A stretch of DNA of 34,013 nucleotides from an uncultured Clostridia bacterium (GTDB taxonomy: Bacteria; Bacillota; Clostridia; Christensenellales; Borkfalkiaceae), in NCBI GenBank assembly GCA_946540675.1, contig CAMNIW010000003.1:1-34013 (forward strand), in the 5' to 3' direction. The notes below the pieces were generated by a model that searched no databases, was not told the DNA's origin, and was given only the letters and a program-made list of their open reading frames with translations. Numbering within the stretch: position 1 is the stretch's first letter; the number at the start of each line of letters is the position of its first letter. The position numbers and the translations under genes are program-made. Positions 1 through 34,013 of the stretch are shown here, in pieces.

Positions 1-126
1 TCACAAACGCACCAAACGCCAAAGTACGCGCCGACGTACCACGGGTAAAAGTTGCAAACCACGGCACGGTCGCCGTCGCGGACGCCGTCGCTCCAATACC
101 CGCCGCAAATGAACGCGTGAAGCGCG
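1..126 (-). repeat. DGR variable repeat (VR), left-end copy
   Basis: Aligns without gaps to 33215-33340. 13 mismatches, every one at a T on the + strand of the TR (A on the coding strand). Confidence 0.93.
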
Positions 127-1103
127 GTTGCGCTTGGAATATATGCGTCGCCGTGTCCGCTGCCTAAAACGTCCTGCCACGCCCACGCGGACGCCGTAGG
201 ATCAAGGCAAAATTCGTCTACCCATTTCCAAACGTTACCCACAAGATCGCGGATATTAACCGCCGAAACCGCGTAAGTCACATTGCCGCAAAGTGTACGG
301 GCGGTGTTTCCGGTTGCGCTCCATGCGTAAGTATTGTTGTTATCCTGCCCCTCGGGAGATCCGAAAGCGGCTTGACAAAACTCCGCGTAAGTTGGTAAAC
401 GCTTACCGACGCGGCGGGCTTTCTCGTTGGCAATGTACCAATCAAGCCCCTCTGTTCCGGTAATAGGGTTTGCGCCCTTGACGGTAGCCAATCCGCCGTC
501 GCCGTCGTCTGATGAAAGGTAAATGTCGCCCCAAAGTCCATTACCGATATAAACCATTCCGGCGGGGTCGCACTTCGGACGGAATAAAAGCGTCCATACG
601 GAGTTAGGAACAACGCCGTTATAAACGTTTGATTGCCAACCGCTGCCGTTCTCTACGCCGGAAGCATTGACCGGAATACCTGCGTCGCTAACCTTTCTTA
701 CTACGCCGTAATGGAAACCACCGATACGGCGGGAATTTGCGGCGGTGTAACCGCTTGGAAACGCTACGGAAGTCGAAATCTTGTAAATTTCGTTCTGATC
801 CACGGTTTCGTCGCCGTTTGTAGGGTCACAAATGAAAATATTGTAATCTGTACCAACGGTAAACGCTGCCCCGCTATCAAGGTCGGCGGGTGTAAGTGTT
901 GCCGCGGTTGTCTTAAAGATCGAAGATCCTACGGCGATAAGAAGATCGCCCATAACTTCGATTTCGTCCGGCGCGTCTTCGCCTGCTGCATAGATAAACG
1001 CTTTTTCCCTTGCTACAATGTCGCCCATTGTGGCAAGTTTGGCGGTTGTAATCTTTGCTTTTGCGCTCTGCATTGACTCGTCGTAAAGAAAAAACTTTGC
1101 CAT
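1..1103 (-). CDS. DGR target protein (FGE-sulfatase/C-type-lectin-like, putative tail tip/receptor-binding protein), truncated at the window edge
   Basis: In-frame read from ATG at 1103: MAKFFLYDESMQSAKAKITTAKLATMGDIVAREKAFIYAAGEDAPDEIEV...NSRRIGGFHYGVV...GLDWYIANEKARRVGKRLPTYAEFCQAAFGSPEG...NIRDLVGNVWKWVDEFCLD...ALHAFICGGYWSDGVRDGDRAVVCNFYPWYVGAYFGVWCVCD. No stop before position 1, so absent from the ORF track. C-terminal GG-W..GV..GDRAV.C...PW..G.W pattern is typical of DGR variable lectin folds. Confidence 0.9.
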   Translation of the reverse strand, partial: MAKFFLYDESMQSAKAKITTAKLATMGDIVAREKAFIYAAGEDAPDEIEVMGDLLIAVGSSIFKTTAATLTPADLDSGAAFTVGTDYNIFICDPTNGDETVDQNEIYKISTSVAFPSGYTAANSRRIGGFHYGVVRKVSDAGIPVNASGVENGSGWQSNVYNGVVPNSVWTLLFRPKCDPAGMVYIGNGLWGDIYLSSDDGDGGLATVKGANPITGTEGLDWYIANEKARRVGKRLPTYAEFCQAAFGSPEGQDNNNTYAWSATGNTARTLCGNVTYAVSAVNIRDLVGNVWKWVDEFCLDPTASAWAWQDVLGSGHGDAYIPSATALHAFICGGYWSDGVRDGDRAVVCNFYPWYVGAYFGVWCVC

Positions 1104-1121
1104 TTTATAAACTCCTTTCTT

Positions 1122-1556
1122 TTATGCCTGCAACTGTTCCAAAATCTCGTCGATTTCTTCTTCCGTAATATCCATTTTTTCGTAGATACTCGGAATTTTA
1201 ACAAGGTCAAATGTTGTTGCCCCTGCCGTTACCGCCTTGTTTGTAACAATGTCGCTTGTGATAAACGAAACGTTGCCGTGTTCGTCCGGTTCGCTCTGAT
1301 TGTGTGTGACGCTCTTAACGATAACGTCCACGTTGCCAACGCGTGCCGCGCTGCCCTCGTCTGCTTCCGCAAGATAGTTTACGTTTACCGTCTTGCGGTC
1401 GCTTGAAATCTCGTTGATGATCGCTTTGTCGTAGTTAAGGTTTTTAATTCTGTTGATCTCTTTGATAACGTCTTTAGCCTTAACTAAACCTTGCTTATAC
1501 ATTTCGAGATAATTAAAAAAATCTGCCCTACAATTTATTTTTACTTTGTATGCCAT
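1122..1556 (-). CDS. Phage structural protein upstream of the DGR target (unknown function)
   Basis: 144 aa ORF with a purine-rich RBS upstream, co-oriented with the tail genes. Confidence 0.6.
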   Translation of the reverse strand: MAYKVKINCRADFFNYLEMYKQGLVKAKDVIKEINRIKNLNYDKAIINEISSDRKTVNVNYLAEADEGSAARVGNVDVIVKSVTHNQSEPDEHGNVSFITSDIVTNKAVTAGATTFDLVKIPSIYEKMDITEEEIDEILEQLQA

Positions 1557-1581
1557 TTTTAAGCCCCTTTCTTTGAAATGC

Positions 1582-2664
1582 TTAATTGCTGCTTGCTACA
1601 TACGCGCCCACATATCCGCCAACGTAAGCGTAACCCGCGTCGTTGTAGATCTTAAAGTTGACCGTTTCGGTTGTCTTTGTATGGTCAAGCGTGAATGTGT
1701 GCGGAATAACCGTATAATCGTCGTTTGCTGCTTCGACGGTATAGTCGCCGTGTTCTGTAAGAAGAAGCGGTTTTGTTTCGTCGTATGTGTAGCGTGTGAC
1801 TTTTCCGGTTGTGGTGTTGGTTGCCACGATCACGAAGTCGGTTAATGTTTCCTGCGTTCCGTTTTCAAACGATAACTTGGTCGCAAGATCTTTCGCCATA
1901 ACTCCGGTTGTGTTCTTGATCTCGTCGATCTGATTTTGCAACATTGCCGCGGTCGCTTCGCCGATAAGATCTTTCATTTCTTCGTAAAGATCGTCAAACC
2001 TTGTATGCTGAATTTCTGCATAACTTGTAAAGTCTGCAAGCATTGATCTATACGCCGCGCTTCCTTGGTCTTCCAAATTATGAATAACCGCAAGATAGGT
2101 CGCGTACTGTTGTGTAATCATTGCTTGATAACGTGCGAAGTAGGCGTTAAATTGCTCCGTGATCTGTGAAAAATCAATCTCTTTTACGGTCGAAACTACC
2201 CAACCGCAAAGATCCGCGTCCGCGCGGGTGTCTGTGATGTTTTCTTGTGTGATCGCGATTGTTCCGGCTGCGACGTAGATTTCCGCCAACTTTAAGTCAT
2301 AATATGCGCCGGATCTTACGATTTCGGGCGCGGTCGGATTTTCTGCATAACCGCCTTTTTGAATGTAGATATAAATATCGCGTTCGGTGTCGTCCCTGCG
2401 CAAAACAACGTTGTCGATACGGTTTAGTGTACCGCTTGCCGTTTCAAGGTCGAATGTCTGCGCGTTTCGGAAGTTCTTAACCTTTGCGCCTATATTGCAA
2501 TAACCCTTTGCAACTGTGACGCTCATATCGTCGTTTGCGGTTACTTGCATTTGACCGTTAAAAACGCCCGTTACGAAGAAAGGTTTTAACCAATCCGTCA
2601 TATCGTCCGCGTCGTAAACTCTGTCGCCCTCTACGGAATTGTAAAAGTATGCGTATTCGCTCAT
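1582..2664 (-). CDS. Phage tail/baseplate protein (BppU-like)
   Basis: 360 aa. N-terminus MSEYAYFYNSVEGDRVYDADDMTDWLKPFFVTGVFNG...VTVAKGYCNIGAK is typical of siphovirus baseplate/tail proteins; position after the Gp37-like gene. Confidence 0.65.
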   Translation of the reverse strand: MSEYAYFYNSVEGDRVYDADDMTDWLKPFFVTGVFNGQMQVTANDDMSVTVAKGYCNIGAKVKNFRNAQTFDLETASGTLNRIDNVVLRRDDTERDIYIYIQKGGYAENPTAPEIVRSGAYYDLKLAEIYVAAGTIAITQENITDTRADADLCGWVVSTVKEIDFSQITEQFNAYFARYQAMITQQYATYLAVIHNLEDQGSAAYRSMLADFTSYAEIQHTRFDDLYEEMKDLIGEATAAMLQNQIDEIKNTTGVMAKDLATKLSFENGTQETLTDFVIVATNTTTGKVTRYTYDETKPLLLTEHGDYTVEAANDDYTVIPHTFTLDHTKTTETVNFKIYNDAGYAYVGGYVGAYVASSN

Positions 2665-2668
2665 TGTA

Positions 2669-3712
2669 TTAGTCCCCCCAATCTATCGTTTCGGGAAGTG
2701 GATCGCCCAAAGTTGGTACTACATACCCCCCGCCGTATTCGTAAACCTCTTGGATCTCGGTAATACGCTTGTTCATATACAAACCCCACGATTTCTTTTT
2801 GACGGTCACAATGTCGCCCAAATCGTAGTCGTCTTTATACTTGAAGTTGATTTCCGGCGCGGTTTCACACTCTAAACTTTCCGCTTCGATTGCTTCGTTT
2901 AACGCTTCATATCCGCGTTGTTTTAATACTTCTTTATATTGCGCCGCCGTTAGGTTCTCCGGTGATAAATCGCGGGCGTCAACGAATAATTCGCGAAGCC
3001 CTAAACCCTCGCCCCCGCCTACCGTGACGACAACGCGGTCGCTTCCGTCGCCCTGCCCGCCTACAATAGCGCAAGTCTTCAAGGCTTGGTCGTTAAACTT
3101 ATAAATCGCATTTGTAAGGTTGTTATAGTCTTCGGAGAAAATAACGCGGTTGTGTTCGCTTTGTGCGAAACTGTGATCCGTTCCTTTCATAGTGTCAAAT
3201 ACGATTTTGTGGGCGTCGAAGTCCGGCGTAAACCGATACCCGATAAGCCCGTATTTTGCAATTTTTGTTTGAACGACTTGTAAATTTCTATAAGTCGCTT
3301 GAAAAGAAACGCGATCGTCGAAGCCGTGAAGTTCTCCCAACTCTACAAGCGGGATCGGAACGCAAGCCGTAAGAAGTTCGCGCATAACTACTTCGATCTT
3401 TGCGTTGTCATAATTTACCGTTCCTTTGATGATCCGGCGATCCATATACGAAGAAAGGAAGCGTCCTTTTACTGTGATTTCGTTTTTAATGTCGCTTTCT
3501 TCTTTCTCTATGTCTTCAATAACGCCCGCTTCTTTCGCCCCTTTAATACTGACTATATTACCGCGTACAAATAACGAAAGGTTCTTTTGCGTGATCGGCG
3601 CGTGGATCTCGAAGTTTCCGGCTTCAAAAAACTTTCGCGTCCATATTAAGGACGTTTGGTTTTCGATCGTACCTTTGCGGTATAAATTCGCGTCGTAAAC
3701 TCTAATTTCCAT
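2669..3712 (-). CDS. Gp37-like (ReqiPepy6 family) phage tail protein
   Basis: MEIRVYDANLYRKGTIENQTSLIWTRKFFEAGNFEIHAPIT... with family-typical organisation after Dit. Confidence 0.7.
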   Translation of the reverse strand: MEIRVYDANLYRKGTIENQTSLIWTRKFFEAGNFEIHAPITQKNLSLFVRGNIVSIKGAKEAGVIEDIEKEESDIKNEITVKGRFLSSYMDRRIIKGTVNYDNAKIEVVMRELLTACVPIPLVELGELHGFDDRVSFQATYRNLQVVQTKIAKYGLIGYRFTPDFDAHKIVFDTMKGTDHSFAQSEHNRVIFSEDYNNLTNAIYKFNDQALKTCAIVGGQGDGSDRVVVTVGGGEGLGLRELFVDARDLSPENLTAAQYKEVLKQRGYEALNEAIEAESLECETAPEINFKYKDDYDLGDIVTVKKKSWGLYMNKRITEIQEVYEYGGGYVVPTLGDPLPETIDWGD

Positions 3713-3718
3713 AAGTTC

Positions 3719-4600
3719 TTAAACTCCTAAATAACGGAAGCGGTAAGTAATTGTAACGTTCATATAGTCGCGCCCTGCTGCCGCTGCATAAGTAAACGTA
3801 TTCTTGCCGTGTACTAACTGTATAAAGTCCGATCCCTCGTCTAAATACTCGTTGATTTCCGTTTCTTCTTCGCCGTCTATAAGGTAAACGGCTTTTTCGT
3901 TTGTTCCGGTTGTTATGCGGATCTTTTGCCCTCTCGAAATCGAAAGCGGGTTGTTATCCGTTCCGATCTTGATATATTCTTCCTGCTCGGTGTGATATAT
4001 CGCGGGGTTTGTTACCGCTCCCATTGCTTCGATAAGTATTTCAATACCGATATTGTCCGCCGCGCTATCGTTGTCAATCTCTTTGATGATTTCCGCCACT
4101 CTTTCGCCGAACGGTTCTTTTTCTGCAATAAAGCAATGTGGAAACTCGAAGCGCGCTTCCCAGCCCGCCATTGTAACGATTGTGTCTTCTTCGTCCTTGA
4201 AGAAAGGATCGGGGCATATAAGGGAAATAACCGCGTTGCGGACAACGCCTTTTTCGTCAATCTCGATTGACTCGACGCGATAGTCAATAATGCGTCGTTC
4301 GTCTTCTTCCGAATAGGTTAGTTGTCCGTTTGTCTTCGGTTTAAAACACTTATAAAGCAAATTGCGGTAATAAACGTGTTTCTTCGATATGTGGGCGGTA
4401 ATAACAATGTTTCTTTGCTGCGTTACGCTGCCTTGGTATGTTGACCCGTCAACCGTTGTATTTTCCGACGTGGTTACTTTGTTTGTTACGCTCATAACGC
4501 CGTCTACGCTTTCCAAAAAGAACGCGCTTTCGTCGTCATAATCGAAAGTGACTTCGACGTCGTCTTCGTTTTTACAAATGATCTTTCTATCTGCGCTCAT
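3719..4600 (-). CDS. Phage distal tail protein (Dit-like)
   Basis: 293 aa directly after the tape measure; N-terminal beta-rich domain and ISLICPDPFFKDEED typical of phage tail family proteins. Confidence 0.7.
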   Translation of the reverse strand: MSADRKIICKNEDDVEVTFDYDDESAFFLESVDGVMSVTNKVTTSENTTVDGSTYQGSVTQQRNIVITAHISKKHVYYRNLLYKCFKPKTNGQLTYSEEDERRIIDYRVESIEIDEKGVVRNAVISLICPDPFFKDEEDTIVTMAGWEARFEFPHCFIAEKEPFGERVAEIIKEIDNDSAADNIGIEILIEAMGAVTNPAIYHTEQEEYIKIGTDNNPLSISRGQKIRITTGTNEKAVYLIDGEEETEINEYLDEGSDFIQLVHGKNTFTYAAAAGRDYMNVTITYRFRYLGV

Positions 4601-4603
4601 TGC

Positions 4604-7594
4604 TTACCCCTTTTGTAATGCTAAAACCATGTTTCGGGTTTGGTTTCTTGTCTGTCTGCCTACCTCATAAGGCGATAAGGCTTTCGGACTCTGAATATAA
4701 TTGTTTTGTATGAAATCGCCGCGCCCGCCTGCTGCCTGCTGCAATGTGTCGGATCTGTTCTTGTCCGAAAGCGGCGTTACGATTGCGCGCCCGTTTGCTA
4801 CGGTCAAAAGTTCCGCGCCTGCTTCTCCGACGATTGCTTGACCTTTTGAAAGGACGCCGCCTTTCGCAAGTCTTGGAAGTGATATTCTTGATAAACTGCC
4901 GATTGAAACCCCGGGTATTTCGTTTATGACTCCGATAACGCCGTTTATAGCATTTACGAAGCCGTTTACAATATTTTCGATTGTTCCGAATACTGAATTA
5001 CAAGCGGACTTAAACGCGCCCATAACTCCGTCGGCGACTTTCTGCCCTGCGTCCTTAAAGATCCCCGTTATCTTATTCCAAAGATCCGTAAAGAATTGCG
5101 GTATTGCTGAAAAGGCGTTTTTAATTGCCTGCGCCGCCGCGTTGAATTTCTCCGAAAAGAACGTTGCCACGTTTGCGAATACGTTCTTTATATCCGTCCA
5201 ACGTGCCGAAAACCATTGTCCGATCCCTTTGAAGATATTAACAATGTTGTTGTAAGCATTGCTAAACATTGTTTGAAACCATGTTGCAACGGTTGATAAA
5301 GCGTTCTTTATGTCCGTCCAACGTGCGGCGAACCATTGCCCGATCGCCTTAAATACGTTTACAACGTTGTTATAGGCATTTTGAAACATAGTTAAAAACC
5401 ATGTTGCAACCGTTGATAAAGCGTTCTTTATGTCCGTCCAACGTGCGGCGAACCATTGCCCGATTGACATAAACGCATTTACGATATTGTTATAAGCGTT
5501 TGTAAACATAGTCCCGAACCACGTTGCGACCGTTGAAAAGATATTCTTTACGGTCGTCCAAACGCCGGAAAAGAACGTCGAAAGGAACGAAGCCCACGCG
5601 TTCAATATGTTTGTAATGAAACCTACGACGTTTTGCCACGCTGCCTTGATGTAAGTAAAGAAGCCGTCGAAATCGCCGTGAAGCAATGCGACAAGGGCGT
5701 TTATAATGTTCGTTACAAACTGAACGACGTTTGTTACCGCTGCAATAATGCTTGGAACGGCTGCCATTATGCCTTGTAATAATCTTTGAATGTAATTGAT
5801 CCATAATTCAAAGATAGGTTGTAACGCCTGCATAAGACTATCAAACGCCGCCTTTAGGTTTTCAAGAAGTGGTTTAATTGCTTCTACTAACTGATTAAAC
5901 GCCGTCTTGATCTGCTCCCACGCTGCGTTTACTTTATTTCTAAAATCTTCGTTTGTTTTATAAAAATACACAAACGCCGCAACTAACGCCGCTATTGCTG
6001 CAATAACTAAACCCACGGGCGAAGTTAAAGCGGCGATCGCGCCCTTTACTCCCCCGACTTTCGTTATTAGTCCGCCGAATTTTGTAACCAAACCGCCAAC
6101 GCCGGACGTTAGTTTTCCGAATATGGTTAAGGCGGGCGCAAGTGAAGCGACAAGCAATAAGATCTTGCCGATAAGGGCTTTTGTGTTTCCGTCTAAATTC
6201 TTAAACCATGTTGAAAACTGTTTGATTTTCTCCACGATTGAAGAAATTACGGGTTGAAGCGACGCCAATAGTTCGCCCGCAAGTTCTGATCCTGCAAGTT
6301 TCAAATTATTAAGGGCGACTTTTGCTTCGTCCCACGGATCAAGGGTTGCGTTAAATGTATCTTCAACGGTTGATCCGTAATCACTTAACGACGTTGTGAG
6401 ATCTTCAAGGGAAAAACGACCCTCGCGGATCGCCTGCGTCATTTCTGCCGCGCCTTTCTTGCCGAATAATTCCGTCGCGATCTGCAACGCTTCCGTTTCG
6501 CTTCCTGCGCTTTTGATCTTCTCTATGTTTTCGCCCAACGCTTCGTCAAGGGTCTTTCCCTCGGCGGTTGCGTTCTGCTGCGCTTTCTTTAAGGCTGCAA
6601 GGGCGGTCGCGCTATCAACGCCGGACGACTCGAATTGCGCAAGAAGATTTACGCTTTCGGTAAGCCCTAACCCCATTTCTTTAAGGGTTGCGCCGTTTGT
6701 CTGCAAGGCGGTTTCTAACGTTTCCATTGAAACGCCCGTGTCCTGCCCTGCTTTTGTCATAAGTCCTAAAACGTTCTTTGTTTCGCTGCTATCAACGCCG
6801 AATTTTTTCATAATGCTATCGACGCTATCAATAGCCCCGTTTAAGTCCGTCCCGTTGATCTCTGCAAACCGGATAAAGTCTTTTGAAAGATCCGTTAAAG
6901 TCTTCCCCGTTACTCCAAAGCGGGTGTTTACTTCTCCGACCGCCGTTCCTGCGTCTGCTGCCGTCGTCGGCAAGTTCGTAAATACGTCGTCCACGCTATC
7001 TTTAAGCCCGTCCAACGCTTCGCCCGTTGCTCCGGTCTTTGTAATAACGGTGTCGTAACCCTCGTCAAGTTCCATTGCGGAATGAACCGCCGCCGCGCCC
7101 ACGGCTGCCGCTGCTGCCGATAAAGGCGCAAGGGCTTTTCCCGCTGCCTGCATTTTGTCGCCTGCTGCCGAAATCTTGCCGCCTGCCGTTTCAAACTTTT
7201 GTCCTAACGTTTCGGCGTCTTTCTGCGTGTTCTGTAATTCCGTTTCAAGGCTTTTTAATTCTGTTTCGGTCTTGATGATCTCGGTTTCTAACGCGCGGTA
7301 TTTGTCTTCGCCCATTTCGCCGCGCTCGAACGCTTCGCGCGCCTGCTCCTGCGCCGTTTTAAGGGTGTCTAACTTCTCTTTTGTATTCGATACCGCTTGT
7401 TGTAATAACTCTTGCTTTTTGGCGGTAAGTTCTACGTTTTTCGGGTCAAGTTTAAGGGCATTATTTACCGCCTTTAATTCGTTTTGTAACGATTTCGCGG
7501 TTGAATTAACCCCCTTTAATGCTTGATCTAACTTTTGTGTAGATCCCCCGATTTCTATTGTGATACCCTTAATGTTATTTGCCATATTTCGCAC
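4604..7594 (-). CDS. Tape measure protein
   Basis: 996 aa; N-terminal coiled coil, TP901-type core, TM segments, internal ~40-aa W-rich repeats. Likely start ATG at 7585. Confidence 0.93.
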   Translation of the reverse strand: MRNMANNIKGITIEIGGSTQKLDQALKGVNSTAKSLQNELKAVNNALKLDPKNVELTAKKQELLQQAVSNTKEKLDTLKTAQEQAREAFERGEMGEDKYRALETEIIKTETELKSLETELQNTQKDAETLGQKFETAGGKISAAGDKMQAAGKALAPLSAAAAAVGAAAVHSAMELDEGYDTVITKTGATGEALDGLKDSVDDVFTNLPTTAADAGTAVGEVNTRFGVTGKTLTDLSKDFIRFAEINGTDLNGAIDSVDSIMKKFGVDSSETKNVLGLMTKAGQDTGVSMETLETALQTNGATLKEMGLGLTESVNLLAQFESSGVDSATALAALKKAQQNATAEGKTLDEALGENIEKIKSAGSETEALQIATELFGKKGAAEMTQAIREGRFSLEDLTTSLSDYGSTVEDTFNATLDPWDEAKVALNNLKLAGSELAGELLASLQPVISSIVEKIKQFSTWFKNLDGNTKALIGKILLLVASLAPALTIFGKLTSGVGGLVTKFGGLITKVGGVKGAIAALTSPVGLVIAAIAALVAAFVYFYKTNEDFRNKVNAAWEQIKTAFNQLVEAIKPLLENLKAAFDSLMQALQPIFELWINYIQRLLQGIMAAVPSIIAAVTNVVQFVTNIINALVALLHGDFDGFFTYIKAAWQNVVGFITNILNAWASFLSTFFSGVWTTVKNIFSTVATWFGTMFTNAYNNIVNAFMSIGQWFAARWTDIKNALSTVATWFLTMFQNAYNNVVNVFKAIGQWFAARWTDIKNALSTVATWFQTMFSNAYNNIVNIFKGIGQWFSARWTDIKNVFANVATFFSEKFNAAAQAIKNAFSAIPQFFTDLWNKITGIFKDAGQKVADGVMGAFKSACNSVFGTIENIVNGFVNAINGVIGVINEIPGVSIGSLSRISLPRLAKGGVLSKGQAIVGEAGAELLTVANGRAIVTPLSDKNRSDTLQQAAGGRGDFIQNNYIQSPKALSPYEVGRQTRNQTRNMVLALQKG
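5161..5640 (-). repeat. 120-bp in-frame tandem repeats in the tape measure gene (~4 units)
   Basis: acgttgc-ac...cgtccaacgtgc blocks recur at 5161, 5281, 5401 and 5521; protein unit ...NAYNNIVNxFxxIGQWFAARWTDIKNALSTVATWF... Confidence 0.85.
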
Positions 7595-9483: not shown

Positions 9484-9888
9484 TCAACCGCCCGCATTTC
9501 TCACAACCTTTTCGATTTCTGCTTCAACCTTGCTTTCGATATTTTCAAGCGTTGGTTTCCAATGTTCAAACGCTGCCGTCCTGCGCCCGCTTCGGGTCAA
9601 ATGCCCGTGTTCAAGTAAATGTGTTATCTGATAGCGTTTTTTGTTATAGATTGTGTACGACTCCGCGCCCGTGACCGAAGAAGCGTTCTTGCGTTGTGTA
9701 ACGCCGAAATTCTTTGCATATTGCCCCGTTCGGTTGTGGTATGGTTTGCCCTGCGAAAGTTCTTTCGCGCCGGACTCTGCAAGATCCTTGTAAACCTCTT
9801 TTAAGCCCTTGTTTACTTCGGTCGAAAAGTTTTCTAATTGCTTTTGCAATTCTTCTGTTAATTGATCGTAACCAACGTTAATTACCAT
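9484..9888 (-). CDS. HK97 gp10-like head-tail connector protein
   Basis: MVINVGYDQLTEELQKQLENFSTEVNKGLKEV...LLEHGHLTRSGRRTAAFEHWKP. Confidence 0.75.
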   Translation of the reverse strand: MVINVGYDQLTEELQKQLENFSTEVNKGLKEVYKDLAESGAKELSQGKPYHNRTGQYAKNFGVTQRKNASSVTGAESYTIYNKKRYQITHLLEHGHLTRSGRRTAAFEHWKPTLENIESKVEAEIEKVVRNAGG

Positions 9889-10165
9889 TGCCGACCCTTT
9901 CCGCCGTATAAAGTTCGGTCTTATCGTCGCGCCTTGCCCCATAAGTCCGGTAAATAGAAAGACGCTTGCCGTCGTACTCTAATTCTTCCTGCCCGTCATA
10001 TTCTGCCGCCCAAACTGTAAATTTGTATTCGGCTTTCATACCCATTTCGCCCGCTGCGTTAAATTCGTCGCGACCGACCGGATCAACGGTTGCAAAAATT
10101 GTTGTTCTGACGTCGTCGTCTTCTGTTTCCCCTACGCTTATAAGTGTGATTTCTGCTTCGTTCAT
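9878..10165 (-). CDS. Phage head closure protein
   Basis: 95 aa; ...EYDGQEELEYDGKRLSIYRTYGARRDDKTELYTAERVG is typical of head-closure proteins. Confidence 0.65.
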   Translation of the reverse strand: MNEAEITLISVGETEDDDVRTTIFATVDPVGRDEFNAAGEMGMKAEYKFTVWAAEYDGQEELEYDGKRLSIYRTYGARRDDKTELYTAERVGNGN

Positions 10166-10517: not shown

Positions 10518-11756
10518 TTATGCGTTTGCCGCTCTCTTTACGCGGATAAAGCCGTTACGCGCTGCAACCGCTCCGCCAACGAAAGCACTTGCGCGGTATG
10601 CGATCTGTCCGGTTGAAAACTTGAAGTCTTCGGACTTTCTCGCGTCAATGTCGGAGAAGATCGCCAACTCGAAGTTTTCAAGCGCACCGTAAGCCATGCA
10701 ATAAGGTGTTGCGGAAGTCTTTGTCGCACTTACCGCGTCACACGCTGAATTGATGATGAAAGGCACGCCGTCGATTGTGCCGGAATTGCCGTTGTTTACG
10801 ATAGTGTAAACCTTGCGTCCCTGCTGATCGCGAAGCATTGCGAACGCTTTAAGATCCTTTTTGTTAAGGATAAGTGTTGCGATTGCTTCCACGTCCTCGT
10901 CGCCGCCGTAAGAGTAAATGATCTCGTCAAGTGTCTTGTTGTCGATCGCTGACAATGTAATGTCGGTGTTGCGGTCGATAACGTCGTCGCTTGCGCTTGC
11001 CGGATTGAAGAAGATACCCTTAATGTTTCCGGTTGATCCGTCGCCGTTGATGATCTGACGTGTGATAATACGTCTAACGGCGCGTGTTACGCTGCCCTCG
11101 ACAACTCCGTCGTAGTCTGCGTTAGGCAACTTTGCCATTTCTTCGGGTTCTTCTGTGTATGCGGTTACTTTCTGCTTCTCGATAGTAACGTAACCGAAAA
11201 CGGGTTCGTTGTTGCTATATGTTCCGCCCTCTGCGGTTCCCATTGCTCCGCCGTTGCCGTAAGACTTAACGAAGCCGCGGTTATAAGTTTCGCCGCCGTG
11301 AAGTGGTACGGCTTTAACTCTGTCAATAAGACCGGAAACGTCGTTAAATGTTTCCTTAACGTCTGTTGCGGTATGAACAACGGGCGCGGTCTGTGATACG
11401 GAAAGACTATTCTTGATCTTGCGGGAAAGTGTCTTTGCGGAATACTTAACCGCCTTTCCTGCCTTTGCTGCTTCTCCACGCATTGCAAAAGCCTTTGTCT
11501 TTGCCTGCGCGTCGTTGTTGCTCTCGCCCTGCTTGCCCTCGTCGCCGTTCTCGTCGTCTTCGGGATCTGCTACGGCTGCCATTGCTGCGACCTTTGCGCG
11601 TGCCTTTGCGTCGGCGATAATCGCCTTTGCGTCTTCAACTTCTGCTACGATTGCGTTAAGGTCTTCGCCCTCTGCGGTCTTTGACTTCTCAACAAGTCCG
11701 GCAATGTGCTTTTCAAGATCCTTTACGCTCATTTTGATAAGATCTTCATGTTTCAT
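10518..11756 (-). CDS. HK97-family major capsid protein
   Basis: 412 aa, N-terminal delta-domain-like coiled coil then ...GGTYSNNEPVFGYVTIEKQKVTAYTEEPEEMAKL... Confidence 0.92.
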   Translation of the reverse strand: MKHEDLIKMSVKDLEKHIAGLVEKSKTAEGEDLNAIVAEVEDAKAIIADAKARAKVAAMAAVADPEDDENGDEGKQGESNNDAQAKTKAFAMRGEAAKAGKAVKYSAKTLSRKIKNSLSVSQTAPVVHTATDVKETFNDVSGLIDRVKAVPLHGGETYNRGFVKSYGNGGAMGTAEGGTYSNNEPVFGYVTIEKQKVTAYTEEPEEMAKLPNADYDGVVEGSVTRAVRRIITRQIINGDGSTGNIKGIFFNPASASDDVIDRNTDITLSAIDNKTLDEIIYSYGGDEDVEAIATLILNKKDLKAFAMLRDQQGRKVYTIVNNGNSGTIDGVPFIINSACDAVSATKTSATPYCMAYGALENFELAIFSDIDARKSEDFKFSTGQIAYRASAFVGGAVAARNGFIRVKRAANA

Positions 11757-13828: not shown

Positions 13829-13875
13829 ATTGTCGCGCCCCCTTTCTTTTCAATCTACCCACATATTACACAATA

Positions 13876-13913
13876 AAAACGCCCGTTTGTTATTATCTTT
13901 CACGGGCGTTTTA
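13876..13913. terminator. Hairpin terminator between terminase and portal genes
   Basis: aaaacgcccgt ... acgggcgtttt: inverted repeat flanked by A/T tracts. Confidence 0.7.
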
Positions 13914-25908: not shown

Positions 25909-27630
25909 ATGAAAAATAAGGCGGGAAACGATAGCCGGATCACGGCGTTATATGTCCGTGTTTCAACGGGTTATCAGATAGACAAAGACTCTTTGCCATT
26001 TCAAAAGAAAGAATTAAAAAACTATTGTGTTCACGTCCTACATATTCCGCCGGACGAAATAGAAATCTACGAAGACGCGGGCAAGTCGGGAAAGAATACC
26101 GACCGCCCCGCCTTTCAAAGAATGATGAAAAAGGTTAAAGCCGGAAGCGTTGCGCGGGTTGTTGTTTATAAGATTGACCGTATAAGCCGAAATCTTGTTG
26201 ACTTCTCTTTGATGTATGACGCTTTTAAAGATAACCGGACGACGTTTATATCACTAAACGAACAATTCGACACGTCAAGCGCAATCGGCGAAGCCGTCCT
26301 TAAAATTATCCTTGTTTTTGCTGAATTAGAAAGAAAACTTACAAGCGAACGTGTAACGGGTGTTATGATCGGGCGCGCGCAAGAATGTAAATGGAACGGG
26401 GCGCGCGTTCCTTACGGTTGGGCGTGGGACGAAGCAAGCGAAAAGCCCGTCCATGATCCAAAAGAAGCCGAAATCGTCAAGCGTATTTATGAAATGTACG
26501 ACGAAAGCCATTCGACAAGCGTTGTTCGTGATTATCTGAATAATAACGATATACCAACGAAGCGGGGCGGATATTGGACGACTAAAACCGTCGGCGATAT
26601 TCTCCACAATCCGATCAACCGCGGCGATTATAGATATAATTATCGTCAAAGCGCGCGCGGGAAGAAGAAACCGGAAGAAGAAGTCGTTTATATTAAAGAC
26701 GTCTTCCCGCCGATTGTGTCCGGTGAATTGTTCGACCGTGTCGAAAAGCAAATGTCCGCAAATTATACCGCCCGCCATTTGAACGGATCGACACATAAAA
26801 GACGTTATGCGCACGTTTTCGCGGGTCTTTTGGTCTGCTGCGATTGTGGGGCGTTCTTTCAATGTGTGGGCGCGGATAAAACCCGCCTAAATGGTTTTAA
26901 GCCGTCATATTATCGTTGTTATACAAGGACGCAAAAACGGGCGTGTTCTGCTGCAAATACAAGCGATATTGTTGTCGGGTCGTTCGTGTTCAATTTTGTT
27001 TCTAATCTGATCGGTGTTTCTAACGACCGCCGGAAGATCTGCAACGCGGGAATTGAAGAAGTCGAAAGGCGGCTTTTAAGCGGCGATCCGTTTTTGGATA
27101 TTGCCGCGATTGATAGCGGATCACTTCGTCAAATATTCGACGCCCTGCGGGGTGTTTCTCGGTCTGCTTCCTCATATATTCCCGCCCCGCTGCCCCAAAG
27201 CAAAGAAAAGGGCGCGTCTATTGCTGCAAAGCGTAAAGAAGCGGACAAAATAACCCGGGCTATGGAACGACTTAAAAAGGCGTATTTATTTGACGACGAA
27301 GCAATGGACGAAAGGGAATATTTAACAACGCGGGCAAGCCTTGAAGAAGATTTGACCCGCCTTAATAACGAAATAGCGGACGCGGAAGAAGCGGCGTTTA
27401 ATGATGTTTCGGAATTATCTTTCGTGCAATCTGCAAGCGAATTTCTTTTGTCGTATAAGATCCAATCCGGCGAACCGATTGTTTATAGTGATTTCGCCCC
27501 GATCGTAGGCAATGAAACGCTAAAGAAATTTGTAAACGTGATAATAGAAAAGATCGAGATTAAAAACGGGCGCGTTGCTTCTATACTTTTCAAAAACGGA
27601 CTTGAAGCACGATTTATATATAAAGTGTAG
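25909..27630 (+). CDS. Large serine recombinase / phage integrase
   Basis: ALYVRVSTGYQIDKDSLPFQKKELKNY N-terminal resolvase domain; recombinase and zinc-ribbon regions (GLLVCCDCGAFFQC...YYRCYTRTQKRAC). Confidence 0.95.
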   Translation: MKNKAGNDSRITALYVRVSTGYQIDKDSLPFQKKELKNYCVHVLHIPPDEIEIYEDAGKSGKNTDRPAFQRMMKKVKAGSVARVVVYKIDRISRNLVDFSLMYDAFKDNRTTFISLNEQFDTSSAIGEAVLKIILVFAELERKLTSERVTGVMIGRAQECKWNGARVPYGWAWDEASEKPVHDPKEAEIVKRIYEMYDESHSTSVVRDYLNNNDIPTKRGGYWTTKTVGDILHNPINRGDYRYNYRQSARGKKKPEEEVVYIKDVFPPIVSGELFDRVEKQMSANYTARHLNGSTHKRRYAHVFAGLLVCCDCGAFFQCVGADKTRLNGFKPSYYRCYTRTQKRACSAANTSDIVVGSFVFNFVSNLIGVSNDRRKICNAGIEEVERRLLSGDPFLDIAAIDSGSLRQIFDALRGVSRSASSYIPAPLPQSKEKGASIAAKRKEADKITRAMERLKKAYLFDDEAMDEREYLTTRASLEEDLTRLNNEIADAEEAAFNDVSELSFVQSASEFLLSYKIQSGEPIVYSDFAPIVGNETLKKFVNVIIEKIEIKNGRVASILFKNGLEARFIYKV

Positions 27631-27947: not shown

Positions 27948-28330
27948 TGTTTGCCCCTTTCCTGCTTGTATTCTTCGCCCGTCCATTGTGTAGACGTAAC
28001 CGTCTTGTCGATTTCCCTTGCGATTTTGTGGAACGCTTCGTCGGCGTCTTTCGCCCAAATATAAAGCGCGTCTTTTTCTTCAATATTGCCGCCCCATATT
28101 TTATACTTTCTTTCGCCGCCCTGCATTTTAACAATGTCTTCGTTGTCGCAATGCGGGCAAAGTCTAAACGTATCAAGCGCGGGCGTTCCCCAAAGCTCGC
28201 CGATCACTTCGTCGTATTCTTTCGCGTCTTCTCCGGTAAACGCTGCGCCGCAAGTCAAGCAACGATACATTGTCTTTCTTTGTTCTTCGGCTGCTGCCGC
28301 TTCGTCCGCGTAAAATTCTTCTAACGTCAT
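27944..28330 (-). CDS. Zinc-ribbon-like hypothetical protein
   Basis: YRCLTCGAAFTGEDAKEYDE...FRLCPHCDNEDIVKM. Confidence 0.55.
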   Translation of the reverse strand: MTLEEFYADEAAAAEEQRKTMYRCLTCGAAFTGEDAKEYDEVIGELWGTPALDTFRLCPHCDNEDIVKMQGGERKYKIWGGNIEEKDALYIWAKDADEAFHKIAREIDKTVTSTQWTGEEYKQERGKQ

Positions 28331-28378
28331 AAGATCCCGCCTTTCTGATGATCGGGGCGGTTGCCCGCCCCTGCTGCA

Positions 28379-28544
28379 ATTATAAAGCCTTTTCGATAAA
28401 CTCGACCGCCGCTTTTATGGTTTTGAATGTGTGAAACTCTCGAAAGCCTTTGCCCTCTCTGATGTTTACGAAGTAATGACCGTGTGTTCCGGCGTATCTC
28501 TGTACTTTGTAGCCTTTAAGTTCTCTTACTGTTTCGATCTGCAT
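28379..28544 (-). CDS. Small hypothetical protein (~54 aa, not in the ORF track; ends approximate)
   Basis: MQIETVRELKGYKVQRYAGTHGHYFVNIREGKGFREFHTFKTIKAAVEFIEKAL*; RBS gaaaggcggg. Confidence 0.55.
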
Positions 28545-28573
28545 ATCTTCCCGCCTTTCTTTGCCTTGTGGGG

Positions 28574-28711
28574 TTAGATCCTAACCCCTAACAACATACA
28601 ATTTCTTTTTGCGTCGCAAAACTTCTTGAAGTTTTCTTCGTTATATTCTGCGTTTACCTCTGCTTTTGCTTCTTTGTATGCTTTTAATGCTTTTTCTTTT
28701 GCTTCGTTCAT
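28574..28711 (-). CDS. Small hypothetical protein (45 aa, not in the ORF track)
   Basis: MNEAKEKALKAYKEAKAEVNAEYNEENFKKFCDAKRNCMLLGVRI*. Confidence 0.5.
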   Translation of the reverse strand: MNEAKEKALKAYKEAKAEVNAEYNEENFKKFCDAKRNCMLLGVRI

Positions 28712-28766
28712 TGTGGTTTATCCTTTCTTGTGTGGTTTATTGCCTTTCGGTAATTATAATATAATA

Positions 28767-28805
28767 CATATTGCGTAATATGTCAATAGTTTATTGCGCA
28801 ATATG
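28767..28805. promoter_or_regulatory. Paired operator-like inverted repeats CATATT-N4-AATATG
   Basis: catattgcgtaatatg (28767-28782) and tttattgcgcaatatg (28790-28805). Confidence 0.6.
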
Positions 28806-28885
28806 TGAAAATATTTTTGCAATCAAAAAGGACGGCGGGTTTTCCGTCGCCCTGCAAGTTATAGGCAAATTAGAAAATGCTTTAT

Positions 28886-29101
28886 TTACGCCGTTTGTGG
28901 CGTCTGTGATACTACGTTCATTTGACAACCGAAAGTTACAGTATGACAGAAAAGCGGGCGTCCTAATTCCTCGGATCTTTTCTTTACGATCTCGCGTGCT
29001 TTCTTTATGAAATAATATTGTCTTGCGGGTTCTTCCGTTGGTGGTTCTTTCGTCGTGTCTATTCCTGCAAGGATCTTTTCTATATCGTCGTTATAATTCA
29101 T
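28886..29101 (-). CDS. Hypothetical protein
   Basis: 71 aa ORF. Confidence 0.4.
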   Translation of the reverse strand: MNYNDDIEKILAGIDTTKEPPTEEPARQYYFIKKAREIVKKRSEELGRPLFCHTVTFGCQMNVVSQTPQTA

Positions 29102-29305
29102 TGTGGTTTATTTTCCCTTTCTTTTTGTTGTAACGCGTGATATTATATATTATTTTGTGTATTTCGGCAATAAAAAACGAAGCGAACAAAACAAAGTTAA
29201 GCCCGCCCCGCTTTTTCGTGATATGTGATTTATCCTTAAAGACCAAAAGAAATATTGTTTTGCTGCCGGATCTGCAAGGATCACGGCAACGTCTTTCGCC
29301 TGCCA

Positions 29306-29914
29306 TTAAGCAAAGTAAATTGTTGCTTCGCCTGCTCCTACGACAAAGCCTTTATCGGTTTCGATCCAAACTTTGCCGTCCTGCTTCTTTACGTCTTTTA
29401 CGTTTACTTTGTTGTTTTTGTAAACGCTGCCGATCACTTCGCCGCCGATCTTGTCATAAAGTGGCATAACGGCTTTTGCTGCGTATTCCTGCCCCTTTTT
29501 AAAGTCCACGTCCGGCGCGTCTTCTCCTGCTGCCGCGTCTGCGTTATCGTCTGCGTTATCGTCTGCGTTGTCCTGCTGCAAATCTTCGGGGTTTTCTGCG
29601 CCTGCTTCTTCCTCGCTTGGGATCTCGACTTCAACCGCAACGATCGCCGCGATAAGATCTTCTTTGCTCATATCGTGCGCGCCCTTGATCTCTAAATCTT
29701 TCGCAAGGTCTACAAGATCCTTTTTGTTCCATGTTGCCAACTGTTCGGCGTCAAGGTGTCCCGTTTTAGGATCTTCCGGCGGGTTCATGGAGTCGTTGGC
29801 GGGTTCTTCGCCCGCTGCCTGCTGCGCTTCTTCCTGCGCCTGCTGCAATTCGGCTTTCACTTCCTCTTTTGCTGCTGCTTCGATTTCTGCTTCCTTTGTG
29901 GTTTTCTTTGCCAT
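29306..29914 (-). CDS. SAP/HeH-like domain phage protein
   Basis: Start MAKKTTKEAE; LATWNKKDLVDLAKDLEIKGAHDMSKEDLIAAIVAVE helix-extended-helix pattern. Confidence 0.6.
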   Translation of the reverse strand: MAKKTTKEAEIEAAAKEEVKAELQQAQEEAQQAAGEEPANDSMNPPEDPKTGHLDAEQLATWNKKDLVDLAKDLEIKGAHDMSKEDLIAAIVAVEVEIPSEEEAGAENPEDLQQDNADDNADDNADAAAGEDAPDVDFKKGQEYAAKAVMPLYDKIGGEVIGSVYKNNKVNVKDVKKQDGKVWIETDKGFVVGAGEATIYFA

Positions 29915-29942
29915 TTTGTAAAACTCCTTTCTTTGATTGATG

Positions 29943-30022
29943 AAAGGCAAGCCGCCCGACTTATCCGTGTAACGTTCGGCGCGCTTTGCTTTCCGAACCG
30001 TCGCGGGCGGGTTCTTGCCTTT
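29943..30022 (-). other. Long structured inverted repeat between endolysin and the next gene
   Basis: aaaggcaag-ccgcccg ... cgggcgg-gtt-cttgccttt (9 + 7 bp) with inner gttcgg/ccgaac stem. Confidence 0.6.
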
Positions 30023-30027
30023 ATTGT

Positions 30028-30741
30028 TTACGCTTTCTTTAAGCGTCCCAACTTCAAAAGATTAAGCATTGTTGTATTTTGCGCCGCCGTTCCCTTGTAA
30101 CCGGAAATTGCGTTTGCTGCTGCAATCTTCGCGCGGTGTGTATAGGTTGTGTCCTTTTCGCCAACCGCTGCAAGGGCGGCAACAATGCTTGTTGTTGATC
30201 CGGCGTAAGTAGGATAATAAGACGATCCGGCGTTTGTCCTTGCCGCTCCTACTGTTACGACGGCGGTATGTCCCTTTGTTTTTGTGACTAAAATATCGCC
30301 CGTGTAAAGTGTCATGCCGGAAGAATAAGAAAGGGCGTTGAAAAGATTTGTCTTTAATAGCAAATTCTTTTCGTTTCCGGTGTTGAAGTTTCCGGCGTCA
30401 ACGCCTGCCGCTTCCCTTACGCACTCACGAACAAGGCTTGAACAATCGCACTCGGTTTTAATCTTTGCGCCCGTTCCGTAAGTGATAACGCCTAAACGTC
30501 CGTTTTGATCGTAACCGATATTTTTATTGTTGCACGCGGTAATCATTGCCGCCGCAATCTTTAAGGCAATATCCGCGCTTTTTGCCCGAAGAATATACCA
30601 CCCTTTAGAATGTATATAAAACTTCTGCTGCGATACTTCGCCGGAATAGTCCGGCGCGCCTGCCTGCTTCTGATCGCCTGCGCTTCCGCCTGCCGCCTTT
30701 CCTCTTTCGTCAATTCGTGCCGATCCGATATAAACCGCCAT
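30028..30741 (-). CDS. Endolysin / peptidoglycan hydrolase (NlpC/P60- or CHAP-like)
   Basis: AKIKTECDCSSLVRECVREAAG...LYTGDILVTKTKGHTAVVTVG (Cys-His arrangement), next to the holin. Confidence 0.75.
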   Translation of the reverse strand: MAVYIGSARIDERGKAAGGSAGDQKQAGAPDYSGEVSQQKFYIHSKGWYILRAKSADIALKIAAAMITACNNKNIGYDQNGRLGVITYGTGAKIKTECDCSSLVRECVREAAGVDAGNFNTGNEKNLLLKTNLFNALSYSSGMTLYTGDILVTKTKGHTAVVTVGAARTNAGSSYYPTYAGSTTSIVAALAAVGEKDTTYTHRAKIAAANAISGYKGTAAQNTTMLNLLKLGRLKKA

Positions 30742-30744
30742 AAA

Positions 30745-31098
30745 TTACACTTCCTTTCTATCTGCTTCGTTTTCTGTTTCCTGCTTGATAGTCGGTTCGA
30801 TCTTCTCGATCTGCTTTGCTAACTGAATAACTTTGTCATAACCAACCATTGAAGCAACCCAAACGGCAACGGTCATAAGAATTAAACAAATAATGTTGTT
30901 GACCGTCCACGGAATACCCATAAGCATATATACGGCAGCCGTTCCCAAACCGCCGATAATAATTGCGTCTGCAAGTGCGACAACGTTTGCCGAATATTCC
31001 TTGCCCGCGTTTGAATACATTTTCTTGATCGCTTCGGTCAAAAGCGCGTTTGCCATTGCCCCGATTGTAAGAATAGTTGCAAATAATGTTACCGTCAT
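30745..31098 (-). CDS. Phage holin
   Basis: 117 aa, several TM segments, adjacent to the endolysin. Confidence 0.75.
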   Translation of the reverse strand: MTVTLFATILTIGAMANALLTEAIKKMYSNAGKEYSANVVALADAIIIGGLGTAAVYMLMGIPWTVNNIICLILMTVAVWVASMVGYDKVIQLAKQIEKIEPTIKQETENEADRKEV

Positions 31099-31114
31099 TT
31101 TGTTATACCCCCTT

Positions 31115-31387
31115 TCATACTTCGTTATTTTCTTCGGGATCTTCCGCCGTAATCGCGTCGGATCTTCCGAATTTCTTTAAGTTTTCCGCTTTTGCTTTCC
31201 AATAATAGAAACCGTGGGACGTTGCCGAAAGCCCGTAAGCCGCCGGAATAAGATATATAAGCGGCGTTGTGTCCTTAATCGCAAATACCGCGACTATTGC
31301 CGCGACGGTACAAATTCCGGTTATTGTGTCCGATACGATCAAAAGGATCTTTGACGTTTCCGGCTTCTTTCTTCTTTTCTTTGTCAT
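31115..31387 (-). CDS. Small membrane protein of the lysis region
   Basis: 90 aa, two hydrophobic segments. Confidence 0.55.
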   Translation of the reverse strand: MTKKRRKKPETSKILLIVSDTITGICTVAAIVAVFAIKDTTPLIYLIPAAYGLSATSHGFYYWKAKAENLKKFGRSDAITAEDPEENNEV

Positions 31388-31390
31388 TTC

Positions 31391-31510
31391 TTAACCCTTT
31401 TCGTTCTTTTGGGCTTCTCCTACTTCTGCAAGTGCGAATATGCCCGCAAGAAGTCCGGCACATAAAAGCCCGAAGCCCATTAAACCTATAATTAAAACCA
31501 AAATAGCCAT
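31391..31510 (-). CDS. Short membrane peptide (39 aa, not in the ORF track)
   Basis: MAILVLIIGLMGFGLLCAGLLAGIFALAEVGEAQKNEKG*. Confidence 0.5.
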   Translation of the reverse strand: MAILVLIIGLMGFGLLCAGLLAGIFALAEVGEAQKNEKG

Positions 31511-31532
31511 ATTCCCCGCCCCCGCTGCCTTG

Positions 31533-31922
31533 TTACTTTGAATTGCTTGTCAAATAATCTTCAAGGTCTGTTTTTGCCCGTTTCAAACTCTCAATATCGT
31601 TACCGTTAATCGAATGGGACAAAAGCGCAAGTAAGGCGCGTTGTGTTACGACGTTCGCTTCTTCGATCTTGTCGATATGCGCCGCGTCGTCAATAAACCT
31701 TTGCGTTATTTTCTGACGCTCTCGGTCGATTTCGTCCTTTACGATCTTCATATCTGTTTCTAATGCGTCCAACCGCTCGTCTTGCTTCCGGTTCGGCTTC
31801 TTTAGGGCGGTAATGCACTTTACAATAACGGCGGTTGCTCCTGCAACGACCGATATTGCCCCGCAAATTGCTAATATAGCGTTTATTATGTCTTGCGGTG
31901 TAAACATAATTGGTTCGTTCAT
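31533..31922 (-). CDS. Membrane/coiled-coil phage protein (possible holin or spanin-like)
   Basis: 129 aa, TM segment followed by coiled coil. Confidence 0.55.
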   Translation of the reverse strand: MNEPIMFTPQDIINAILAICGAISVVAGATAVIVKCITALKKPNRKQDERLDALETDMKIVKDEIDRERQKITQRFIDDAAHIDKIEEANVVTQRALLALLSHSINGNDIESLKRAKTDLEDYLTSNSK

Positions 31923-31952
31923 GTTACGGTTTCCTTTCTGTGTTTCCTTGAT

Positions 31953-33008
31953 TTACTCACATATTACACAATCAAAACGCCCGTTTGTTATTAGTTTCAC
32001 TCGGTCGATTTCTGCCCGTAGTTCCTCGCATAATTTGAACGTGTCGGCGTGTCGCGCGTGTCCGATCCGGCTTTCGATAGAACGGTCGAAAAGTTCTTCG
32101 TCAACTTCTCCGGTTTCAAATGCCCTTAATAATTTCTTGATCCTGCGGGTTGCCTGCTTGCGAAGCGTTATAAACGCCGGAAAGTGTCTATATCCTACGA
32201 AATCAACGCCGTTTTTCGCTGCAAGGATCGTTGTTTTCGGGTTTAATGCTAAATGTAAGCGTTCATTTACAAACTTTTCGATCTTTTCCAAAATCTCGCG
32301 AAGTTCTGCCGGATCTTCGCCCAAAATAATAAAGTCGTCCATATACCGGATATAATAACGGACGCCTAAATCGTGCTTGATGTAATGATCTAATATGTTC
32401 AAATATACGTTTGCGAATAGTTGGGACGTTAGATTTCCGACCGGAATACCTACGCCGTCGGGATAAATGCCGTTGTGGTCTATAATGTGATCTAATATTT
32501 TCAAAACGTCTTTGTCGGATATATAACGCCGGATCTCCGCTTTTAAGATTTCGTGATCTATGCTTTGAAAATAATGGTGTATATCGGCTTTAATTGCGTA
32601 AATCTTCTTTCCCTGCTTTACTTGCATATTGTAAAGCCAACGCGAAAGAATTTTACTTGCTTCGTGTACGCCCTTTTCTTTCCTGCAAGCGTAAGAATGA
32701 AATATAAATCGCTTTTCAAAAATCGGTTCAATGATGTTTACGATCATGTGTTGGATTACTCGATCATAAAACGGCAACGCCATAATAAGGCGTTCTTTTG
32801 GCTCGAATACCTTAAAAACATAATACCGCCCCGCGTGATAAGTGCCGTTTCTAATATCCGCAATCGCTCTTAACAAGTTGATTTCGCGGTCGGCTTCAAA
32901 CCTTAACACTTCGGGACGGTATCTTTTACACTTTCGCGCCTTTTTATACGCCTTGATCGCGTTGTCTATGGTACAAATCGCGTCTAAAATGTGTTTTTCT
33001 GTTTTCAT
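31953..33008 (-). CDS. DGR reverse transcriptase
   Basis: 351 aa. Catalytic YIRYMDDFIILG; GIPVGNLTSQLFANVYLNILDHYIK is the GNxxSQ variant characteristic of DGR RTs. Adjacent to TR and Avd. Confidence 0.96.
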   Translation of the reverse strand: MKTEKHILDAICTIDNAIKAYKKARKCKRYRPEVLRFEADREINLLRAIADIRNGTYHAGRYYVFKVFEPKERLIMALPFYDRVIQHMIVNIIEPIFEKRFIFHSYACRKEKGVHEASKILSRWLYNMQVKQGKKIYAIKADIHHYFQSIDHEILKAEIRRYISDKDVLKILDHIIDHNGIYPDGVGIPVGNLTSQLFANVYLNILDHYIKHDLGVRYYIRYMDDFIILGEDPAELREILEKIEKFVNERLHLALNPKTTILAAKNGVDFVGYRHFPAFITLRKQATRRIKKLLRAFETGEVDEELFDRSIESRIGHARHADTFKLCEELRAEIDRVKLITNGRFDCVICE

Positions 33009-33090
33009 ATTCTTAAAAATTGTCCGTGTCGCGTTTCGCCCTGCGCCGTTTGCTATGGGTTACTTCTCGATCGGTTCTCTTTTATCTTTG

Positions 33091-33106
33091 TCCGGCAGCA
33101 GCCGGA
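33091..33106 (-). other. Hairpin in the TR-RT spacer
   Basis: tccggc-agca-gccgga: 6-bp perfect stem, 4-nt loop. Confidence 0.5.
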
Positions 33107-33212
33107 ACGGGAAGCGTTAAACGCTCTTTACAACCGTCTGACTCATTGTAAAAAGACTTTTACAAAAGCCCTTGCGACGCTTGCGGACAAGACGCCGTCT
33201 AAAAGTTCCAAA

Positions 33213-33340
33213 AGTCACAAACGCACCAAACGCCAATGTTCGCGTTGACGTTCCACGGGTAATTGTTGCAATTCACGGCACGGTCGCCGTCGTGGACGCC
33301 GTTGTTCCAATTCCCGCCGCAAATGAACGCGTGAAGCGCG
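33213..33340 (-). repeat. DGR template repeat (TR)
   Basis: Non-variable counterpart of both VR copies, between the avd-like ORF and RT. Coding read ALHAFICGGNWNNGVHDGDRAVNCNNYPWNVNANIGVWCVCD is rich in AAC/AAT codons, the usual substrate for adenine mutagenesis. Confidence 0.95.
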
Positions 33341-33402
33341 CGGAAATGCAACGCCCGACGATACGGTAATAACGGTTGCCCCAAAGTAAAAGGGCGGTCG
33401 CT

Positions 33403-33828
33403 TTACGCTCCGCCCTGCTTTTTCTCCTTTGCTTCTTTGATAAGTCCGCCGATTAAAGCCCCGATAATCGCGACTTGTGAAGCGCAATAAAACAAAACGT
33501 CTTCGTTTATCGCTGAATATTTAAGGTCGTAAGCAAGTCGTAATTTACGCATAAGCCGTCGTTTTGCACGATCCGCCGTGTAAAGGTGTGAAATAACTTT
33601 TGTTATTTCGTATTGCTCTATTTCGTCCAATATAAGGTCGATTGCTTCGCGGATCTCTTGTTGCAACGTAAACTTTTCGTAATGTGGTAACTTCTTCATT
33701 TTATCGTGAAGATATACGCTAAAATCATACGCCGCTTGATGTGCTTTTGTATGTGTATAGTCTGCCTTTGTATCTAATACGACTTGCGGCACGCTATATT
33801 TTGCTTCGTATTCTTTCGCGTTTTCCAT
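33403..33828 (-). CDS. avd: Avd-like DGR accessory variability determinant (helical-bundle protein)
   Basis: 141 aa, strongly helical. Motif LPHYEKFTLQQEIREAIDLILDEI is typical of Avd/four-helix-bundle proteins. Lies between the target gene 3' end and the TR. Confidence 0.8.
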   Translation of the reverse strand: MENAKEYEAKYSVPQVVLDTKADYTHTKAHQAAYDFSVYLHDKMKKLPHYEKFTLQQEIREAIDLILDEIEQYEITKVISHLYTADRAKRRLMRKLRLAYDLKYSAINEDVLFYCASQVAIIGALIGGLIKEAKEKKQGGA

Positions 33829-33864
33829 TTACGCCGCCTTGCCTTTCTTTAATCTTTGGAATAT

Positions 33865-33889
33865 AGGCGGTCGGCTTTCGCCGCCGCCT
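33865..33889 (-). promoter_or_regulatory. Hairpin/cruciform downstream of the VR (candidate DGR target-recognition structure)
   Basis: Coding strand AGGCGG-CGGC-GAAA-GCCG-A-CCGCCT: 6 bp + 4 bp stem, one bulge, GAAA loop, 15 nt past the VR 3' end. No U-tract follows. Confidence 0.7.
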
Positions 33890-33903
33890 TTCTGCTTACT
33901 GTG

Positions 33904-34013
33904 AGTCACAAACGCACCAAACGCCAACGGCCGCGTCGACGTACGACGGGAAATTGCTGCAACCCACGGCACGGTCGCCGTCGTGGACGCCGTTGTACCA
34001 ATGCCCGCCGCGA
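33904..34013 (-). repeat. DGR variable repeat (VR), right-end copy with the target-gene 3' end (stop TAA at 33896-33898)
   Basis: Aligns to the TR. 11 mismatches at TR T (+) positions plus 2 others (c>g, a>g). Minus-strand frame reads GHWYNGVHDGDRAVGCSNFPSYVDAAVGVWCVCDSQ*. Confidence 0.9.

Follow-up and report, generated by a model that had tools for sequence, protein, structure and literature searches.

A temperate phage contig of Clostridia-associated hosts that appears to have been opened at the diversified VR of its BPP-1-type DGR

The closest described counterpart of the locus analysed here is the DGR of Bordetella phage BPP-1, in which the parts follow the order mtd - avd - TR - brt. 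The two systems share this order, changes of the VR that are limited to adenines, an Mtd homologue that carries the VR at its 3' end and a GC-rich hairpin with a GAAA loop downstream of the VR; in BPP-1, efficient recognition of the target depends on a hairpin of this type (Guo et al., 2011; PMC3240598). They differ in that the target protein described here shares only ∼31% identity with Mtd across 78% of its length, and in that BPP-1 is a podovirus of Bordetella whereas the present phage is temperate, is associated with Clostridia and encodes a tape measure protein as well as a serine integrase.

VR diversity has been documented both in isolates and in metagenomes. Copies of hankyphage, a Bacteroides phage, differ along their whole length only in the VR (PMC6199706). 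Hankyphage is, however, a Mu-like transposable phage whose copies are prophages in sequenced isolates, whereas the material here consists of metagenome contigs broken at the VR. Passages from the survey of active DGRs in global metagenomes (Roux et al., 2021; PMC8144416) report SNVs in 70.1% of VR loci and low read coverage of some VRs, within-population VR diversity being the norm. Contig edges are named in that paper as a source of misprediction, and allele-mismatched circular ends are not among the passages found. In our literature search, which covered few subscription papers, circular contigs whose ends carry mismatched alleles of a VR were not found described. Judged by the large terminase (57–67% identity), the closest phage records are those of the Butyrivibrio phages Arawn and Idris, phage nd12 and MT835660; none of the four is among the listed matches of the target protein, and a DGR target shared with them was not seen.

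The window, that is, the whole stretch of 34,013 nt analysed, corresponds exactly to one contig of a MAG (G000:C3:1-34013), so that its ends are true contig ends. The following features are referred to below.

1..126, minus strand: VR allele 1 (VR1), the 3'-terminal part of the target gene at the left end of the contig; ungapped match to the TR
1..1103, minus strand: main part of the Mtd-like DGR target gene (tail tip, receptor-binding), assigned by Pfam, PHROG and PDB profile matches
25909..27630, plus strand: large serine recombinase (integrase); Pfam Resolvase (7e-33), Recombinase (7e-26) and Zn_ribbon_recom
31953..33008, minus strand: DGR reverse transcriptase (RT) gene; PHROG 1423 (5.9e-126)
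33213..33340, minus strand: template repeat (TR), the reference copy for VR1 and VR2
33403..33828, minus strand: Avd accessory protein gene; PHROG 3206, 'Avd protein of DGR' (1.4e-15)
33866..33888, minus strand: GC-rich hairpin with a GAAA loop, of the DGR target-recognition type, 15 nt downstream of the VR
33896..34013, minus strand: 3' end of the target gene as carried by the other contig end; stop codon TAA at 33896-33898
33904..34013, minus strand: VR allele 2 (VR2), cut by the right contig end; in register with the TR and VR1

Read on the minus strand and through the junction of the two ends, the order is tail genes, target gene (1103 to 1, then 33905 to 33896), hairpin, Avd, TR and RT, followed by further genes up to the endolysin. 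A reverse transcriptase of the DGR group thus lies near a TR/VR pair: in addition to the PHROG match, it matches Pfam RVT_1 (2e-22) and the reverse transcriptase of PDB 8ub7 (3.2e-60), and its translation contains YMDD and VGNLTSQ. An Avd-type gene lies between the VR and the TR; its match to the Pfam bAvd family (2.8e-8, 34.6 bits) falls just under the curated cut-off of 40. The hairpin, GGCGG-CGGC-GAAA-GCCG-(a)-CCGCC, has a 9-bp stem with one bulged A and agrees with the hairpin/cruciform defined for such elements (downstream of the VR, GC-rich stem of 7–10 bp, GRNA loop; PMC3240598). Its stem is compensated in the related locus L022 (GGGGC-GCCC-GAAA-GGGC-a-GCCCC) and shows compensatory pairs also in L023, which has the loop GGGA; the loop stays GNRA-like in distant relatives. 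An Rfam scan of positions 31000-34013 gave no match. Where IMH and IMH* would be expected, 24 nt are invariant at the 3' ends of VR2 and the TR, 22 of them also in VR1, and the VR and TR versions are identical there. We identify this cassette, from its sequence features, as a complete, standard DGR of the BPP-1 type on a temperate phage.

An element of ∼60 nt is present twice in the window, at 31951-32011, where it lies at the 3' terminus of the RT gene and upstream of the gene block that follows, and at 13853-13912, in the interval from the large terminase gene to the portal gene. The latter copy is a terminator-like hairpin (AAAACGCCCGT...ACGGGCGTTTT), a conserved ATTGTGTAATATGTG follows both copies, and both places are conserved in relatives; the element is possibly a shared terminator plus promoter.

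The target gene has 367 codons up to the contig end and 370 once the other end adds D-S-Q-stop; the joined ends stay in the reading frame and yield ...GVWCVCDSQ*. Its product matches the Pfam families mtd_2nd (7.9e-29) and FGE-sulfatase (6.8e-6), PHROG 11262 (tail protein, 2.4e-61) and, in profile comparison, the Mtd structure 1yu1 (4e-17). As regards a possible C-type-lectin fold around the variable residues, the profile alignment to Mtd structures runs through the last residue. An AlphaFold model of the target, built from an alignment of six sequences, had a mean pLDDT of 34, too low for use. Among 301 genomes of the host family, only one other (G235) has a clear copy of the gene (80%). Orthologues of the target gene are also present in the loci L012, L013 and L137, where the search gave no match to a DGR RT; a TR-like repeat near the orthologue was not found in L012 and L137, and L012 has no space for Avd-TR-RT before the next shared gene. 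These three seem to have lost the DGR and kept the tail gene.

The preliminary description of this DNA had placed base 1 in register with position 33906 and had held that the ends differ at many sites, nearly all of them TR adenines. The alignment of 1-108 with 33906-34013 is indeed ungapped, with 92 of 108 positions identical, and 14 of the 16 differences between VR1 and VR2 fall on TR adenines (the minus strand being the coding strand). Of the 108 columns, 24 are A (hypergeometric P = 1.4e-9 for this bias). The start of VR2, earlier put at 33906, has to be moved: the alignment stands, and the identity of VR2 to the TR reaches 2 nt further, to 33904. Each allele can also be compared with the TR. 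Over 126 nt without gaps, VR1 has 13 differences, 13/13 at TR adenines (hypergeometric P = 6e-11); VR2 likewise has 13, counting the end base, with 11 at adenines (hypergeometric P about 4e-7). The two changes outside adenines, at 33945 (G>C relative to the TR) and at 34012 (T>C, one base before the contig ends), may be assembly or sequencing errors; both end haplotypes are assembler consensus sequences. Within the contig, long repeats of the VR/TR kind occur in three copies only, VR1, VR2 and the TR. That the ends are two alleles of one VR, as previously proposed, is upheld by relatives in which one target gene with one VR runs across the junction. The sequence comparison thus assigns the contig ends to two alleles of a single VR at the 3' end of the Mtd-like tail gene.

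A third allele comes from another metagenome. Contig IMGVR_UViG_3300021256_001952 (L015) can be aligned with 7,324 nt of the window and differs from it there at 10 positions. All 10 lie inside the VR (33928-33964), 9 of them at TR adenines; the TR, RT and Avd of L015 are identical to those of the window. A contig from a third metagenome is identical to the window over 4,343 nt of head and packaging genes. When seven alleles were scored against their own TRs, 73 of 173 adenines were changed as compared with 2 of 632 other bases, both of these exceptions being the VR2 positions listed above, so that these VRs differ from the TR essentially at adenines. An otherwise identical phage sequence thus appears to carry at least three VR alleles, which look like footprints of mutagenic retrohoming.

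Two related loci have unusual VRs. In L006 (full contig L098), the VR (10551-10676) has six non-adenine differences from its own TR (9859-9984) and only two from the TR of the relative L017; it looks as if written from another TR, through recombination, a change of the TR or a chimeric contig. In the MAG G314 (C159:643-768, locus L144), the VR slot is exactly the TR of L017, with zero adenine changes, and the G314 contigs C82 and C159 break inside the TR; here the TR sequence was probably assembled into the VR slot.

The relatives also bear on the shape of the map. In IMGVR_UViG_3300021254_001257 (L006), which is 97–98% identical to the window at the DNA level, window positions 27952..34011 are followed by 1..7165 through one VR, and L008, L009 and L010, at about 73–85% identity, likewise have one target gene and one VR across the junction. 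In IMGVR_UViG_3300003523_000007 (L008; 34,048 nt), a direct repeat of 49 nt at the two termini marks a closed circle of 33,999 nt; this circle is collinear with the 33,905-nt unit described here and opened near window position 27.7 kb. The same map is found in full-length L010 (36.4 kb, a virus contig), opened near 28.8 kb, and in a full-length contig of a 'Ruminiclostridium' MAG (G315, 35.2 kb), opened near 16.3 kb. The two ends are thus contiguous in relatives and the linearisation points vary among them, as in a circular map. These junction-spanning and closed relatives agree with the earlier prediction of a circular or circularly permuted phage of ∼33.9 kb, and they support the view that the contig represents a single complete circuit of such a map, 33,905 nt in length. 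We call the phage temperate because of the large serine integrase. It is assigned to Clostridia-associated hosts; relatives occur in Clostridia, Ruminiclostridium and Lachnospiraceae MAGs as well as in the Clostridiales bacterium 1_7_47_FAA genome. The tape measure gene contains, at 5155-5561, three tandem 120-nt repeats that are 72–81% alike and are also present in relatives.

With a probability of about 0.93, we consider the contig to be a circular, or circularly permuted, temperate phage map with a BPP-1-type DGR that was opened by the assembler at the diversified VR. Weighing against this view are the two VR2 changes outside TR adenines and the VR slot of G314, which suggests that assemblers may place TR sequence there too. 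The sequence comparisons document the DGR anatomy, the adenine-limited alleles, the adjacency of the ends through one VR in relatives, the circular map in relatives and the third allele; the course of events that would connect them is as follows. RT and Avd would make from the TR transcript a cDNA mutated at adenines, which would replace the VR of the Mtd-like tail-tip gene, so that each phage lineage would gain its own residues at what is presumed to be the receptor contact. Such adenine-directed rewriting is proposed to have left several VR alleles side by side in the phage population of the sample. The assembler, coming to the VR from both sides, would have taken a different allele on each side and could not have joined them.

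Three other explanations were weighed and set aside: a second target gene in tandem, a break caused purely by the TR/VR repeat and plain strain divergence. Were the contig linear, its ends could belong to two separate target genes, in tandem or distant from each other, with their own VRs and one shared TR. DGRs with more than one target do exist, more than one target gene being mentioned in the abstract of PMC10743442, and in the related locus L071 the VR lies ∼6 kb from its own TR. However, the 97–98% identical relative and at least three more show exactly one target gene and one VR at the junction, which makes a tandem second target gene very unlikely; the rest of the MAG yielded no further copy of either the target gene or the VR; and the phage map needs no additional genes to be complete, its 33,905 nt matching the 33,999 nt of the closed relative. 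We regard this arrangement as highly improbable.

A break due solely to the near-repeat of TR and VR, with no diversity of alleles, is just as improbable in our estimate. The TR and the VR do share exact stretches of over 20 nt, and contigs of G314 and L019 break inside the TR, but a single VR allele would give the same sequence at both ends, whereas 16 of the 108 sites differ, and the TR itself was assembled correctly inside the contig. Even less credence can be given to two ordinary co-occurring strains that drifted apart with no DGR activity. Metagenomes 3300021254 and 3300021426 each gave contigs of related phages at about 80–98% identity, so related strains do occur together; drift, however, would mark the flanks as well, whereas the differences fall almost only on TR adenines, and L015, which is identical to the window outside the VR, differs from it at 10 sites within.

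The assembler thus most likely failed owing to several VR alleles in the sample, and the similarity of TR and VR may also have contributed to the break. On the left the contig runs to 22 nt past the last variable site of VR1, and on the right it lacks the outermost 18 nt of the VR. Contigs of relatives end in similar places, those of L015, L007 and L011 inside the VR and that of L019 inside the TR. Among contigs of ten close relatives, these four ends in the VR or TR compare with 0.26 expected (P = 7e-5) in a test designed post hoc, after the pattern had been seen. Across 80 DGR RT loci, 4 of 34 upstream contig ends lie in the VR as against 0.76–0.94 expected (P = 0.007–0.016); when L015 is left out, P becomes 0.04–0.07. 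This post hoc test is suggestive of the VR as a contig breakpoint in the larger set.

The DGR type described here is well known. What is new is the complete genome recovered from a mismatched circle, together with a clean example of VR alleles in public data: an apparently linear, incomplete contig becomes a complete phage genome, and public contigs show one phage, otherwise identical over 7.2 kb, whose tail-tip binding site exists in three or more versions. More tentatively, and with slightly less than even confidence, we suggest that an active VR may be a systematic breakpoint of short-read assembly, that phages with busy DGRs may be under-represented among closed circles and that mismatched ends may serve as an archive of VR alleles. 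If so, VR alleles would be readable from the mismatched ends of public contigs with no need for raw reads. Since active VRs would break assemblies, screens for closed circles may miss DGR phages; one exact-end circularity screen requires a direct overlap of 50–200 bp (PMC8008677), and it is plausible that screens of this kind hide phages with active DGRs. Were VR breaks general, completeness rules based on exact ends would miss active-DGR phages; such phages would be regained by rules that tolerate mismatches at TR adenines.
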